Shown here piece after piece: positions 48,594 through 54,510 of a DNA stretch of 64,000 nt (the stretch's first letter is position 1; each line of letters starts with the position of its first letter). The notes beneath the pieces were generated by a model. It had not been told where the DNA came from. It did not search any database and saw only the letters and a list, made by a program, of their open reading frames with translations. The DNA is from Shewanella frigidimarina (GTDB taxonomy: Bacteria; Pseudomonadota; Gammaproteobacteria; Enterobacterales; Shewanellaceae). The DNA lies in NCBI RefSeq assembly GCF_003797125.1, contig NZ_RKKE01000005.1, forward strand, positions 62,001 through 126,000. Direction: 5' to 3'. The position numbers and the translations under genes were made by a program.

Positions 48594-49229
48594 ATGTCTG
48601 AATTAACCATCGGTGAAATATCTAAACCTCGTTTTGAATTTCGAACTTTCGGGCAACACTTTACCGAAGCATCCTATCGTATGGTGCGCTTATCGGTACC
48701 CGTACCAGAAAAGCTTTGGTGCCGAGAAAGTGACGAAATTTATATCATCTCCAGCACCAATGATTTGAACAATACCAAAATTCGCGACGGTAAGATGGAT
48801 ATAAAATCCTATGTGCAAACGGTCAACGGCTTAGAACAATGGGACCCAAAACTTAAAGCGGTATTTCCATTGAGTAAAACACGACTGATTGAAGAAATAT
48901 TCCCCGCGTTTATGGTTGATTTACCCGCATTAACCCAAGACAGCTATTGTTTAGAAGACTTCCTCGCTGTTATCGAAAACCACCCAGACTTACAGGCAGT
49001 CAACATTCATAAACAGCGCTACGCCTATATGGTTAATGATACAATTTGTGAGTTAGCGAACGTGCTCGTTAATGGCGCTCGAATTGTCAGTATCAACAGC
49101 GAATCAACTCAAATAGAAGATATACAAAAAACCATAAGTGATTTAAAGCTGACAGGAGTTGAAAATATCAATTACTTACAAGCGATAAAACGCGTTATTG
49201 GGATGAAAAACTTACCTCTCGCTAACTAA
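48594..49229 (+). CDS. Divergent CYTH/TTM-like protein
   Basis: A 211-residue soluble protein. SDEIYIISS (46-54), NTKIRDGKMDIK (60-71) and GLEQWDP (79-85) recall the basic strands of a triphosphate tunnel; NIHKQRYAY (137-145), CELANVLVNGARI and NYLQAIKR (193-200) recall the later CYTH strands and closing helix. The usual N-terminal ExExK is reduced to FEFR (14-17). I think it is a distant triphosphate-tunnel protein, but this is a pattern-based call. It precedes the canonical CYTH gene by 57 bases on the same strand. Confidence 0.55.
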   Translation: MSELTIGEISKPRFEFRTFGQHFTEASYRMVRLSVPVPEKLWCRESDEIYIISSTNDLNNTKIRDGKMDIKSYVQTVNGLEQWDPKLKAVFPLSKTRLIEEIFPAFMVDLPALTQDSYCLEDFLAVIENHPDLQAVNIHKQRYAYMVNDTICELANVLVNGARIVSINSESTQIEDIQKTISDLKLTGVENINYLQAIKRVIGMKNLPLAN

Positions 49230-49286: not shown

Positions 49287-49757
49287 ATGGCTCAAGAAAT
49301 CGAACGTAAATATTTAGTCAAAAGCGATTTATTTAAATCGCAGGCCGTTGGTTCGGTCCGTATTATTCAGGGCTATTTATCGAGTGTGCCTGAACGGACT
49401 GTCCGAGTTAGAGTGAAAGGTGATAAAGGTTTTTTAACCATTAAAGGCATTGGTAATGAGTCTGGGGCTTCCCGCTATGAATGGGAAAGTGAAATCTCAG
49501 TCGCTGAAGCACAGGATCTACTCAAAATTTGTGAGCCTGGTGTTATTGATAAAACACGCTACTTAGTCGAGTTTGAGAATCACACTTTCGAAGTTGATGA
49601 GTTTTACCAGCAAAATCAAGGTTTGGTGGTTGCAGAGGTAGAGCTTACTGATGAAGCACAAAAAGTACACAAGCCCAGCTGGTTAGGTAAAGAAGTCACG
49701 GGTGACAGACGCTATTACAACTCAATGCTAATGAAGCAGCCTTTTACCTCTTGGTAA
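49287..49757 (+). CDS. CYTH-domain triphosphate tunnel metalloenzyme (tripolyphosphatase type)
   Basis: A 156-residue single-domain CYTH protein. EIERK (4-8) is the metal and phosphate-binding ExExK; RVRV (40-43), TIKG (51-54), EWESE (65-69), DKTRY (88-92), EVDEF (102-106) and AEVEL (116-120) are the alternating basic and acidic tunnel strands. Size and motifs match bacterial TTM proteins such as the tripolyphosphatase of Nitrosomonas europaea. It should hydrolyse inorganic tripolyphosphate with a divalent metal in the cytosol; cyclase activity is less likely. It lies upstream of porin and phosphate-transport genes. Confidence 0.93.
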   Translation: MAQEIERKYLVKSDLFKSQAVGSVRIIQGYLSSVPERTVRVRVKGDKGFLTIKGIGNESGASRYEWESEISVAEAQDLLKICEPGVIDKTRYLVEFENHTFEVDEFYQQNQGLVVAEVELTDEAQKVHKPSWLGKEVTGDRRYYNSMLMKQPFTSW

Positions 49758-50509
49758 TTGAACGGATAATTTGAACGGATAATTTGAAGCCTGCGCAGGT
49801 AAAGCATGCTTCATTTCCCTCAATCTATTTGCTCACCATGATAACAACATCAAACGACGGCATTAGCTAGTCACATCAACAACAAAATAAAATACCCCAT
49901 TGATTCAATAGCCTATAAAACAGATTGTTAATGACATCTTTAATTTATCTCATCATAAAAATGAATGGGATAAATCATAATACCTCGCCGTTTTAATGCA
50001 ACATTCATTTATTTAAAATCCATCTTTAAAAAATTAAGTTCTTATATAAACAGACACAAAGTAAAACAAAAGCATTACTTAACCCATCAAACCCTTGTCA
50101 ATATTGTTTTAAAAATGCACTAAAAATCAATTTATCGATATACATAACGTGTCAATTATTCGATTACAATATGACCACAACCACATTTAAGCACAATCTG
50201 CTCGATAATCTACTCGACAAGCTAAAATAGACATTAAAAACAATTAAATCAGTTAATTAAATTGGAATACATTGTTCCTGCCTGCTTATCTTTTACTGAT
50301 AATACCATTAAGTTGCATTTCTATTTTTTTCTACAAAAATTCTTGTTCACCAACCAGAAACGACAAACAAACAAAAAAGAAACAAATTGTAAGATTTAGT
50401 CAAGATTAGTTGATGATGATCATATTTTGATCACAATAATAGTCATATTCTTAAACAACTAGATTGAGTGGATTTAACACTTCGTTAAATAATAATAAAT
50501 ATTCAAAGG
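49758..50509. other. 752-base A+T-rich intergenic region upstream of the phosphate porin
   Basis: Contains two perfect tandem copies of TTGAACGGATAAT (49758-49770, 49771-49783), then CCTGCGCAGG inside a TGAAGC/GCTTCA stem (49785-49812), a possible terminator of the CYTH gene without a T run. Near the porin start lie TGATCA repeats (50417-50445). No Pho box with the CTGTCAT pattern was found and no gene is supported. Confidence 0.45.
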
Positions 50510-50518
50510 ATGACTATT

Positions 50519-51865
50519 ATGACTACCAAAACAGTATTCTCTATCTCCAGTGTTGCGCTGGCAATTTCAGTTGCATTTTTATGTTTTCCCTCAAGTGCAA
50601 TTGCAGCTGATTCTGACAAAATTATCGAACTAGAGCGGCGATTAGATGCCCTTGAAAGAGAACTAATTGAAGCAAAAGATGCAGCAAATAAAGTCGATCG
50701 GATTAAGTTTTCAAAAAGCAGTCCAACCCCAGAATTGATATCTAAAGATGGCAGTTCAACCCTTGAATTTACCGGTCGTTTTCAAGCTGATTATGTCAGT
50801 GCTGATGAACTGTACACGGGTAACAAATTCACTTATGAAGATAAATTTAACGATGCTAGCTTACGTCGTATCCGGTTTGGTATTGAAGGTTATTTTTCAA
50901 ATGTATGGAAATATTCCCTCGAATTTGATTTTGACGGTGAATCGGACGTTGAAATAAAAGATGCCAATGTGAGCTATAGAGGCTGGGACAATAATGAGTT
51001 AACCATTGGTTTTCAAAAATTTGGCTTTGGATTAGAAGCGACCGGAAGCTCAAAAAACTTGGCGTTTTTAGAGCGAGCATCAACGGATACATTCTCTCCA
51101 GAGCGTGGCATCGGTATTGAGTGGGGTTATATTGCCAACAATTATAATTTCAAAATTGGCTATGGCATGAATGCCGGATTCGACGATGACGACAAAAATT
51201 TCCAACAAGATATTTTCAATGCAAGATTCACCGCAGCCCCCATTAATAATAATGTCCATCTATTACATTTAGGCGCTAGTGCGCTTTACACCTTAAACAA
51301 TGATGAAGTATTAGAAACACGTTACCGTGCTCGCCCAAGCAGCAAGCCAGCAGGTCGAATTATCGACACGGGTAAATTTGATGCAGACTCAACCCAACAT
51401 TATGGTATTGAAGCGGCTTATCAACGTAATAATCTACTATTGCAAGCCGAGTACATGATCGCAAAAGCTGACCAAGTCGATGAGCCAACAATTACTGTCG
51501 ATAGCTATTATGCTCAAGCCGTATACACCTTAACTGGTGAAAGCTGGCAATACAGTAACAAAAAAGGCACCTTTAAAGCAGTCAGCCCTGCAAGTGCCAT
51601 TTCTGCTGGAGGTTATGGAGCTTGGGAACTTGCAGTTAGGTATGACCACGCAAACTTTGATGATACTGACTCAGATATTATCGGCGGCAAAAAAACAGAT
51701 TACATCCTGGGTGTAAATTGGTATTTAGAAAATAACCTAAAAACTCAACTTAACTATGTCCATACCAAAGCAGATTATAAAGAAGCTTATGTCGACATTG
51801 ATGGTGTAACGCGATACGACCAAGATGGAAATATCATCCAAGCTCGTGTGCAGTTTGCTTTTTAG
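50519..51865 (+). CDS. Phosphate-selective porin, OprO/OprP type
   Basis: A protein of 448 residues: signal peptide ending AIA|AD, a short N-terminal coiled coil (IIELERRLDALERELIEAKD) that helps trimers form, then a barrel with GRFQADYV, RRIRFGIEGYF, SLEFDFDG and GFQKFGFGLE blocks of the porin_O_P family, ending in VQFAF. OprP and OprO of Pseudomonas pass phosphate and pyro/polyphosphate respectively. AAAGGA lies 8 bases before ATG 50519, which is preferred over 50510. A CYTH-like exported protein follows immediately. Confidence 0.9.
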   Translation: MTTKTVFSISSVALAISVAFLCFPSSAIAADSDKIIELERRLDALERELIEAKDAANKVDRIKFSKSSPTPELISKDGSSTLEFTGRFQADYVSADELYTGNKFTYEDKFNDASLRRIRFGIEGYFSNVWKYSLEFDFDGESDVEIKDANVSYRGWDNNELTIGFQKFGFGLEATGSSKNLAFLERASTDTFSPERGIGIEWGYIANNYNFKIGYGMNAGFDDDDKNFQQDIFNARFTAAPINNNVHLLHLGASALYTLNNDEVLETRYRARPSSKPAGRIIDTGKFDADSTQHYGIEAAYQRNNLLLQAEYMIAKADQVDEPTITVDSYYAQAVYTLTGESWQYSNKKGTFKAVSPASAISAGGYGAWELAVRYDHANFDDTDSDIIGGKKTDYILGVNWYLENNLKTQLNYVHTKADYKEAYVDIDGVTRYDQDGNIIQARVQFAF

Positions 51866-51877
51866 GAGATAGTGAAA

Positions 51878-52705
51878 ATGAAGACTCATTTACTTGTTAT
51901 CGGCTTAGTTAGTTTATGCCTCCATAGCGGTGCTTATGCACTTTCACCGAACCAATTTACGTCTTTGGAATACCACGTCAATACTGGAGTGGCTAGCACA
52001 TTACCTTATGCTGCAGATCAACTGACGCCTGATTTTACAAATGCATTTAGTTTTATCACTCTCGAAGAGGAATTAAGCATAAAACTGGTCACATTTATTG
52101 ATACGCCTAATCGTGATTTTAATGCTAAACACATTAATATTCGAGTTAGAGAAAATGTGACTACACCACGTAAAAGCAAAATCACCATAAAATTACGTGC
52201 CGATAACCCTCAAGCGTTCGGCGAACTGAGTGGTTACAAAAAGGCTGAAGTCGACTATACCGAGGGTAATGCAGCTTATAGCGTCAGTTACGATCTGCCC
52301 TATTCTCCCAATGACATAGACATACAGCACGTTAATATCGCTACGGTATTTGACATCATAAAACGCAATCAAGCGATGTGGGACATTGTCAGTGATATAT
52401 ACAATCAACATAAGCAAGATTTGATTCAAACCGTGGTGATGCGAACTCATGGTTGGGACGGATTTGTTAAAGATAAGCGTTTTAACGATGTTGAAATGGA
52501 GTTCCAAATTTGGACCCCTTACTACCGTAAACCTCGGATAACTTTCGCTGAGTTTTCATTTAAAGGTAGCGATGGTGATAAAGCGCGACTGGATGAAGCA
52601 TATCAATACATTAATCAACAAGTTAAAGCTGTTGGGTTTGATTCTAGCCATCAGGGGTCTAAAACTAACTCTACTTTCACCATTACAGAAGCATTTAATC
52701 AATAG
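51878..52705 (+). CDS. Exported CYTH/TTM-like protein
   Basis: A 275-residue protein with a signal peptide ending near AYA|LS (21). The mature part reads as a CYTH domain: TFIDTPNRDFNAKHINIRVRE (72-92) matches the YFDTxxxxLxxxGxxLRxR block; SKITIKLR (100-107) the next basic strand; KKAEVDY (121-127) an acidic strand; VVMRTHGWDGF (186-196), VEMEFQIW (205-212) and FAEFSFKG (223-230) the later strands. An exported TTM protein beside a phosphate porin suggests periplasmic tri- or polyphosphate hydrolysis. GGAG overlaps the porin stop and supports ATG 51878; GTG 51872 is too close. No experimental function known to me. Confidence 0.65.
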   Translation: MKTHLLVIGLVSLCLHSGAYALSPNQFTSLEYHVNTGVASTLPYAADQLTPDFTNAFSFITLEEELSIKLVTFIDTPNRDFNAKHINIRVRENVTTPRKSKITIKLRADNPQAFGELSGYKKAEVDYTEGNAAYSVSYDLPYSPNDIDIQHVNIATVFDIIKRNQAMWDIVSDIYNQHKQDLIQTVVMRTHGWDGFVKDKRFNDVEMEFQIWTPYYRKPRITFAEFSFKGSDGDKARLDEAYQYINQQVKAVGFDSSHQGSKTNSTFTITEAFNQ

Positions 52706-52749: not shown

Positions 52750-52786
52750 GTTTCGGCTTCCTTCCCATACTGTTAAGGAGATGCCA

Positions 52787-53455
52787 ATGTTTGGTTTTTC
52801 TCGAATCACCACACTTCTCTCGCAAAGTCGCTCGACTGAAACTAAGGTCTATTTATTTTTTGACCAAGTCACATTGTCACATCATAAATCAGTGCAAATG
52901 TGGAAAAGTTACTTCGCATATGGCCCTAGAAGCCCTGAATTTGAGCATACGCTAAATGAACTGCAGTCAATTGAGCATCAAGCTGATTTATTGAAAAGAG
53001 AAATCGAGCAGATTCTCTATCTTAAAACCCTGATCCCAGACTTACGCTCTGATGTGGCTTCATTAATAAACCTTGCCGATCGGCTTATCAATAAGCAAGA
53101 CATCATAGGGTTACACCTAAAAATTGAGCAACCGATTATTCCGCCAGAAATTGAAGAAGATTTGTTCAGGTTATTGAAGGCGGTAGGTGAAACTATCGAT
53201 CACACCGTGTTATGTGCTCGCAGTTTTTTTACCGATTTACAACGGGTACAGGAATACCACACAAAGGTTATCGCTTTTGAAAGCGAAGCCGACCGGCTCT
53301 GTACCAAAACAAAAATAAACCTATTTGACACTGACTTAGACCTCATCAATAAGGTTCAACTACGATATTTTATTGACCGTATTGACGAAGTTGCCAATTT
53401 ATCTGAAGACATCTGTGATCGTATTGCAATCTTCACTCTGAAACGTGCGCAATAA
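52787..53455 (+). CDS. DUF47 / PhoU-like phosphate transport accessory protein (TIGR00153)
   Basis: A 222-residue helical protein. IEHQADLLKREIE and FESEADRL carry the repeated E-x-x-A-D metal-binding pattern of PhoU-like proteins. DUF47 proteins are nearly always paired with PiT transporters and are thought to control them. AAGGAG sits 6 bases before ATG 52787; the ATG at 52781 is too near. PiT follows after 11 bases. Confidence 0.93.
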   Translation: MFGFSRITTLLSQSRSTETKVYLFFDQVTLSHHKSVQMWKSYFAYGPRSPEFEHTLNELQSIEHQADLLKREIEQILYLKTLIPDLRSDVASLINLADRLINKQDIIGLHLKIEQPIIPPEIEEDLFRLLKAVGETIDHTVLCARSFFTDLQRVQEYHTKVIAFESEADRLCTKTKINLFDTDLDLINKVQLRYFIDRIDEVANLSEDICDRIAIFTLKRAQ

Positions 53456-53466
53456 GGAACGGATGC

Positions 53467-54510
53467 ATGGATATTGCAATTTGGATTTTTCTTTCAAGTG
53501 GCTTGTTTCTTGGTTGGTCATTAGGCGCTAATGATGCTGCCAATGTTTTTGGCACTGCGGTTGGGGCCAAAATGCTCAAATTTTCAACTGCGGCGATTAT
53601 TTGTTCCATTATGCTTATTTTAGGCTCGGTCATTAGTGGCGCGGGGGCATCTCATACGTTGGGCGCATTAGGCAAAGTATCGGCCATGGGTGGTGCATTT
53701 ACTGTCGCACTGTCCGCTGCAACAACTGTGTATTTTATGACAAAATCCGGATTGCCGGTATCAACTAGCCAAGCCATTGTTGGCGCCATTATTGGTTGGA
53801 ATTTATTTAGCGACATGGCAACAGACTCAAGCGTACTTACAAAAATTTTAACCACTTGGGTTCTGTGCCCTATTCTTGCCGCAGTGGTGGCGATTATCTT
53901 GTATAAGTGTGTCACATTTTTGCTGCACACACTGAGGCCAGGACTATTTCAACTAGATAATTGGACTCGCATTGGATTAATTTTTGCGGGGGCGTTTGGT
54001 TCATACAGTTTAGGCGCAAATAATATTGCGAATGTGATGGGGGTGTTTGTTCCGAGTACGCCGCTAGATCCACTGCATATTGCAGGGGTGGAATTTAGCG
54101 CCTCAATGCAATTATTTTTTATCGGGGGGATTGCGATTAGTATTGGTGTATTCACCTACTCTAAAAAAGTCATGCTCACTGTGGGGGATAATTTAATCAC
54201 CATGACCCCAATCAGCGCTTGGGTTGTTGTTATGGCTCACTCAACTGTACTGTTTATTTTTTCCTCGCAATCACTTTCAGATGCGTTTACCAATATAGGC
54301 TTACCTTCTATTCCACTTGTTCCAGTTTCAAGCTCGCAAGCCCTTATTGGGGCGGTCATTGGCATTGCCATATTAAAACGTTTACCGGTGCAATTGGGGG
54401 TATTACTTAAAATTTTAATGGGTTGGGTTGTAACACCCATTATGTCGGCTATCTCGTGTTTCATCGGTCTGTTTATTGTGCAAAACCTGTTTAATCAAGT
54501 CGTGTTGTAA
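53467..54510 (+). CDS. PiT-family inorganic phosphate transporter
   Basis: A 347-residue, about ten-helix permease. GANDAANVFGTAVG (from residue 20) and LGANNIANVMGVF in the second half are the duplicated PiT signature (PD001131). It imports metal-phosphate with protons or sodium. Last gene of the phosphate locus, directly behind DUF47. Confidence 0.95.
   Translation: MDIAIWIFLSSGLFLGWSLGANDAANVFGTAVGAKMLKFSTAAIICSIMLILGSVISGAGASHTLGALGKVSAMGGAFTVALSAATTVYFMTKSGLPVSTSQAIVGAIIGWNLFSDMATDSSVLTKILTTWVLCPILAAVVAIILYKCVTFLLHTLRPGLFQLDNWTRIGLIFAGAFGSYSLGANNIANVMGVFVPSTPLDPLHIAGVEFSASMQLFFIGGIAISIGVFTYSKKVMLTVGDNLITMTPISAWVVVMAHSTVLFIFSSQSLSDAFTNIGLPSIPLVPVSSSQALIGAVIGIAILKRLPVQLGVLLKILMGWVVTPIMSAISCFIGLFIVQNLFNQVVL

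Follow-up and report, generated by a model that had tools for sequence, protein, structure and literature searches.

A predicted exported triphosphate tunnel (TTM/CYTH) protein without the ExExK hallmark in a phosphate-related gene cluster of Shewanella frigidimarina

A stretch of 64,000 nucleotides from Shewanella frigidimarina (contig NZ_RKKE01000005.1, positions 62,001 to 126,000), referred to below as the window, encodes a 275-residue protein that combines a predicted signal peptide with the fold of triphosphate tunnel (TTM) proteins and homology to the CYTH family. The fold and the homology are of an already known type; new here is a TTM/CYTH member that lacks the ExExK hallmark and is predicted to be exported. 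Its gene lies between those of a phosphate-type porin and a phosphate importer, and this location suggests a role in feeding on external phosphate chains. The protein, termed here the exported TTM, is probably a divergent family member that serves a periplasmic phosphate-scavenging system by binding or cleaving such chains. TTM enzymes are regarded as intracellular, and little is known of the enzymes with which Gram-negative marine bacteria use dissolved polyphosphate. Microbial polyphosphate metabolism was still described in 2026 as considered limited to intracellular cycling (PMC13318637).

Fold and homology

The resemblance to TTM and CYTH proteins proposed in an earlier note on this DNA is borne out by methods that agree with one another. 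An AlphaFold2 (AF2) model built on a 27-sequence alignment of relatives has a predicted local distance difference test score (pLDDT) of 90.4 and a predicted template modelling score (pTM) of 0.88; it replaced a single-sequence model that, at pLDDT 36, was useless. On structural matches the model is assigned to the TTM fold, defined as an eight-stranded closed beta tunnel. The earlier note had proposed a comparison with TTM structures, and a Foldseek search of the PDB with the AF2 model returned 55 matches at E <= 0.001, the first 36 matches being all TTM or VTC structures. The best was 3sy3 (E 1.3e-7), and the top matches included human thiamine triphosphatase (ThTPase; 2.4e-7) and HpAC1 (template modelling (TM) scores 0.55/0.65), with AtTTM3-PPPi, YgiF, SaTTM and VTC among the further TTM matches. 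The TM-scores to PDB TTMs are moderate, about 0.3-0.65, which fits a divergent, larger member as modelled.

Comparison of the domain profile by hhalign with six YgiF-type CYTH domains gave a probability of 95.4 and an E-value of 2e-8, with the YFDT, RVR, and TxK blocks in register. The domain profile, searched against 395 genomes from the order, retrieved just two proteins apart from members of the family itself; these are YgiF-like CYTH proteins in which ExExK is intact (EIELK, EVEIK). The CYTH family PF01928 was matched by 14 of 21 aligned relatives at E <= 1 (best E 1.2e-4). Because the Foldseek, hhalign, genome-scan, and PF01928 results agree, the exported TTM is taken, on profile comparison, to be homologous to accepted CYTH members. 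The relationship is visible only through profile-profile and fold comparison; phmmer and hmmsearch profile searches against PDB sequences turned up no TTM, and hhalign gave no detectable match between the exported TTM family and short NeuTTM-type CYTH proteins (E 0.45).

The active site

The N-terminal ExExK motif is the hallmark of CYTH enzymes (PMC8233210). In the model, strand 1 of the exported TTM (residues 29-35) reads SLEYHVN, and its glutamate E31 is invariant in all 24 aligned sequences. The second glutamate of the motif is replaced by histidine in Shewanella, in a third genus, and in the 607-608-residue paralogues described below, and by alanine in five genomes of a second genus (g2); the lysine is replaced by asparagine in nearly all single-domain members. 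The sequence blocks listed in the earlier note (FIDTP, IRVR, TIKLR, AEVDY, VEMEF) were all five found, in the same order. The basic residues that bind triphosphate (LRxR, TxK, and the C-terminal SK) are represented by R89, R91, K105, and K262, which are invariant in the 24 sequences, as are K69, K99, K101, R107, and R189. The invariant acidic residues are E31, E124, D126, and E206, of which E124 appears, on a reading of the alignment, to correspond to the glutamate of RxE.

Metal site 2 of YgiF is formed by Glu4, Glu6, and Glu162, and Glu160 belongs to metal site 1 (PMC4641920); Glu160 and Glu162 are the second and third glutamates of CELELEL as counted on the PDB chain. Strand 8 of the exported TTM keeps one acidic residue (E/D225) with S/G and K/E as neighbours, in an alignment of uncertain register. 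Since the basic residues are invariant and the ExExK is lost, as most of the strand-8 acidic residues appear to be, the side predicted to bind phosphate is preserved and that for the metal appears rebuilt. The earlier note had spoken of a CYTH enzyme; its fold and homology stand, and the label of enzyme is overstated, as the hallmark is not conserved. In the absence of ExExK the protein is a variant for which hydrolysis is not to be assumed.

Signal peptide and export

Signal peptides were called by inspection and hydropathy. The N-terminus of the exported TTM, MKTHLLVIGLVSLCLHSGAYA followed by LSPNQF, has a lysine, a hydrophobic core, and an AYA cleavage motif, which agrees with the signal sequence described in the earlier note. 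The best 10-residue Kyte-Doolittle mean is 2.94, whereas the cluster's cytosolic CYTH protein reaches 0.96. The protein is predicted to be exported by the Sec route and would reside in the periplasm. A cytosolic protein, with an N-terminal hydrophobic stretch that is coincidental or serves as a membrane anchor, would accord with the characterised CYTH enzymes, which to our knowledge are all cytosolic or cytosol-facing. Such a location is nevertheless highly improbable, given that orthologues across three genera share the layout of a basic residue, hydrophobic core, and AxA, and that the 607-608-residue paralogue and its pyrophosphatase partner likewise carry signal peptides. Literature searches for exported, secreted, or periplasmic CYTH or TTM proteins, with most subscription journals outside their coverage, found no description, in line with the earlier view that an exported TTM would be unusual.

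Gene and distribution

The ATG start at 51878 is preceded by AGGAG at 51865-51869 and lies 12 bp behind the stop codon of the porin gene; an in-frame GTG is present upstream at 51872. Of 152 genomes from the family, 23, the window's own among them, have a single-domain copy; they span three genera, and the copies are 48-94% identical to the window protein. The ratio of nonsynonymous to synonymous substitution rates (dN/dS) against the 94%-identical copy in Shewanella sp. SG41-4 is 0.11. These copies and this ratio mark the gene, by sequence comparison, as real and under purifying selection. A plasmid search found no homologue, and when 369 class-level and 398 phylum-level genomes were scanned with the profile, no relatives outside the family were detected; the lineage therefore looks narrow at the sensitivity of the scans. 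Coordinates of the gene, its motifs, and the surrounding features are given in the table.

Table. Features of the exported TTM, its cluster, and the related operon. Coordinates are window positions, or positions in the named locus.
Feature	Position	Strand	Basis or note
Exported TTM/CYTH-like protein, 275 residues	51878..52705	+	Open reading frame, Pfam, alignment, AF2 model, Foldseek, hhalign
Predicted Sec signal peptide, residues 1-21 (MKTHLLVIGLVSLCLHSGAYA)	51878..51940	+	Hydropathy and AYA motif; kept in all orthologues examined
Strand 1, residues 31-35, EYHVN, place of CYTH hallmark ExExK	51968..51982	+	Alignment, AF2 model; definition from PMC8233210
IRVR, residues 88-91; invariant Arg89 and Arg91, LRxR substrate-binding pair of CYTH	52139..52150	+	Alignment, hhalign
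TIKLR, residues 103-107; invariant T103, K105, R107	52184..52198	+	Alignment, hhalign
KAEVD, residues 122-126; invariant E124 and D126	52241..52255	+	Alignment, hhalign
VEMEF, residues 205-209; invariant E206	52490..52504	+	Alignment
EFSFKG, residues 225-230, strand 8; YgiF acidic ExExE reduced to E/D-x-S/G-x-K/E	52550..52567	+	Alignment, hhalign
SKT, residues 261-263, invariant; place of C-terminal SK in CYTH proteins	52658..52666	+	Alignment
Conserved operator-like element TGTAAGATTTAGTCAAGATTAGTTGATGATGATCA, 35 bp, 87 bp before porin start	50388..50422	+	Unique in genome; shared regulon element
Conserved 211-residue protein of unknown family, first gene of cluster	48594..49229	+	Pfam scan, gene-order comparison
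Cytosolic short CYTH, NeuTTM-like, intact ExExK (EIERK)	49287..49757	+	PF01928 E 1.8e-15; PDB 2fbl (NE1496) E 1.6e-17
OprO/OprP-type phosphate-selective porin	50510..51865	+	PF07396 E 7e-62; PDB Porin P 7e-23, Porin O 5e-22
DUF47/PhoU-like protein	52781..53455	+	PF01865 E 5e-20
PiT-family (PHO4) transporter	53467..54510	+	PF01384 E 2e-52
607-608-residue exported TTM-domain proteins	L003 9736-11562; L055 7707-9533; L056 7371-9194		
Exported Mn-dependent family II inorganic pyrophosphatases	L003 11691-12716; L055 9594-10619; L056 6310-7353		

Conserved gene cluster

The three genera share a gene order consisting of the 211-residue protein of unknown family, the cytosolic NeuTTM-like CYTH, usually a 440-residue protein of unknown family, the porin, the exported TTM, the DUF47 protein, and the PiT transporter. 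In L050 and L051, the open reading frame filter put overlapping frames in place of some cluster genes. The 211-residue protein has no Pfam or NCBIfam match above cut-off. The gene for the 440-residue protein lies between the cytosolic CYTH and porin genes in most relatives (e.g. L003 3036-4361); it is absent, with no remnant, from the window (49758-50509 checked) and from Shewanella sp. SG41-4. A porin orthologue was present in 16 of 127 genomes of the genus sample, all 16 of which carry the exported TTM. In another family of the order, a YgiF-type CYTH gene (L046 262-1815) adjoins, back to back, a gene (1927-2613) assigned as DUF47-like on its sequence, and this pair constitutes a second link, on sequence assignment, between TTM and DUF47 proteins.

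An exported protein of 607-608 residues with a related TTM domain, 22-26% identical to the window domain, occurs in seven genomes of the family. It consists of an N-terminal part of ~190 residues of unknown family, a middle TTM-like domain, and a C-terminal part of ~150 residues, with no Pfam matches above cut-off. At each paralogue locus examined, the paralogue is followed by a Mn-dependent inorganic pyrophosphatase of family II (DHH/DHHA2) with a predicted signal peptide of its own. Three pyrophosphatases tested against NCBIfam scored 326, 311, and 290 bits, above the cut-off of 283, and the remaining loci were assigned by tblastn. The pair lies ~1 kb downstream of PiT in Shewanella and elsewhere in the genome in g2.

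A shared operator-like element

A block upstream of the porin gene, TGTAMGATTWAGTTGARATTARTTGANNNNGATCA, is conserved across Shewanella and g2. It is built of two direct repeats spaced by 10 bp, followed by TTGANNNNGATCA. The element is unique in the window's genome at up to 3 mismatches, and its next best place in the window has 10 mismatches. The element recurs, with 3-8 mismatches, 211-275 bp upstream of the paralogue-pyrophosphatase operon (L003, L010, L033, L037-L039, L055), and none of 200 shuffles for each was as close a match; L008/L035 and L056 have no ungapped match to it.

A pattern loosened to admit both the porin and the paralogue sites found 25 sites in 20 of 24 genomes, versus none for the reversed control pattern, and no site in three genomes chosen for lacking the operon. 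All 25 sites precede the porin or the paralogue operon, save one in G066 that immediately precedes a gene for a Cache-domain chemoreceptor. Because the paralogue sites had been used in part to fit the pattern, their recovery is not independent, whereas the chemoreceptor site and the absence of other sites are. Computation shows the operator-like element to be shared by the porin operon, the paralogue-pyrophosphatase operon, and the chemoreceptor gene, a predicted regulon. The Cache-domain methyl-accepting chemotaxis protein (L060 11224-13143, L129 4693-6666) adjoins PiT in some genomes and in G066 lies behind the element at a distant place; the G066 receptor is 47% identical over its full length, and 40% in the sensor half, to one beside PiT in another genome (also L059). 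The receptor is a candidate phosphate or polyphosphate chemoreceptor.

Proposed function and alternatives

From the computed signal peptide, fold, homology, gene order, operator sharing, and porin co-occurrence, we infer a periplasmic location, a substrate, and chain binding. Short inorganic phosphate chains (polyphosphate, tripolyphosphate, and perhaps pyrophosphate) would enter through the adjacent OprO/P-type porin, and the exported TTM would hold a chain in its basic tunnel and, on the balance of probability, help to cleave it. The PiT transporter and its DUF47 partner would then take up the orthophosphate released, and chains in the cytosol would meet the NeuTTM-like protein encoded in the cluster. 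The second operon with the same operator, present in some relatives, would add the larger exported TTM-domain protein and the family II pyrophosphatase, which would finish pyrophosphate to phosphate. A bolder version, quite possible though short of probable, is an undescribed periplasmic regulon in which exported TTMs with a rebuilt metal site (ExHxN) cleave polyphosphate or tripolyphosphate, with an exported family II pyrophosphatase to break down the remaining pyrophosphate and with porin, PiT, and chemoreceptor under one operator.

Several observations weigh against the proposed function. The ExExK hallmark is missing, with strand 1 reading ExHxN or ExAxN, and the acidic triplet of YgiF strand 8 appears mostly lost, with Ser/Gly and Lys/Glu aligned at Glu160/Glu162 and a two-residue shift possible. 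Mutating these glutamates cripples YgiF and AtTTM3 (PMC4641920), and because of both the losses and the mutants, catalysis by the known TTM mechanism is doubtful. The window protein alone scores 14 bits against PF01928, below the Pfam cut-off of 23.2. A scan for the Pho-box consensus that covered 16 upstream regions (14 from the porin gene) stayed at chance, a result that leaves room for PhoB control; the operator-like element itself is not a Pho box. The window's genome has no 607-608-residue paralogue, and no exported pyrophosphatase lies within the window.

The nearest alternative is a non-catalytic periplasmic binding protein, whose tunnel would capture chains delivered by the porin and pass them on or retain them while other proteins hydrolyse them. 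Retention of all the basic residues alongside loss of ExExK and apparent loss of most strand-8 acidic residues would suit such a protein, and Vtc4 offers a parallel, with basic residues that guide the polyphosphate chain in place of the acidic patch (PMC4641920). However, E31, E124, D126, and E206 are invariant, as expected for a persisting metal site, and the window's operon encodes no other exported phosphatase. Some plant TTMs lack ExExK (AtTTM1/2), and pyrophosphate is the reported substrate of AtTTM2 (PMC8233210), so that the missing motif does not preclude activity. Pure binding is a real possibility, if a rather doubtful one. The same plant proteins favour a periplasmic pyrophosphatase, and ATP and thiamine triphosphate, as substrates of CYTH relatives, favour a nucleotide or organic triphosphatase, in either case not a polyphosphate protein. 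Both seem unlikely, as the adjoining porin belongs to the phosphate/polyphosphate type, relatives already have an exported family II pyrophosphatase in the co-regulated operon (a second would be redundant where both occur), and the tryptophan of the ThTPase motif WxRxR is absent. An operon for another oxyanion such as sulfate is suggested by the kinship of the PiT-family protein with the CysP sulfate permease, as seen in a weak match to NCBIfam NF053884. That match, at 82 bits, is far under the cut-off of 400, and the DUF47 partner, the OprO/P porin, the two TTM proteins, and the exported pyrophosphatase of relatives all point to phosphate, which makes this alternative very unlikely.

Chain binding or cleavage in phosphate scavenging hence remains the preferred function. 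The exported TTM lineage, with porin, importer, pyrophosphatase, and chemoreceptor under one operator, offers a concrete and testable gene set, and the lineage is a natural experiment on how far a TTM active site can change.

Comparison with known systems

The exported TTM resembles the YgiF-type inorganic triphosphatases (E. coli YgiF, PDB 5a60) in the tunnel fold and in the order of YFDT, LRxR, TxK, RxE, and the C-terminal SK. YgiF-type proteins have an intact ExExK and a strand-8 ExExE, lack a signal peptide, and often carry a CHAD domain (CYTH-CHAD), whereas the exported TTM has a signal peptide and ExHxN and lacks CHAD. The short bacterial CYTH proteins (NeuTTM NE1496, PDB 2fbl) belong to the same superfamily, and the one in the window shares the gene cluster of the exported TTM, but it keeps EIERK and has no signal peptide. 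AtTTM1/2 also combine the TTM fold with the lack of the hallmark motif; they differ in being eukaryotic and fused to a kinase domain, and in the pyrophosphate use reported for AtTTM2 (PMC8233210). The tunnel domain of the Vtc4 polyphosphate polymerase matches the exported TTM in fold (7ytj E 1e-4, 3g3q 2.3e-4) and apparently in its reduced acidic patch, although the ATP supply of the Vtc4 setting is not expected in the periplasm. The window porin is of the same family as the Pseudomonas OprO and OprP porins, beside which we know of no exported TTM; OprO is described as preferring polyphosphate.
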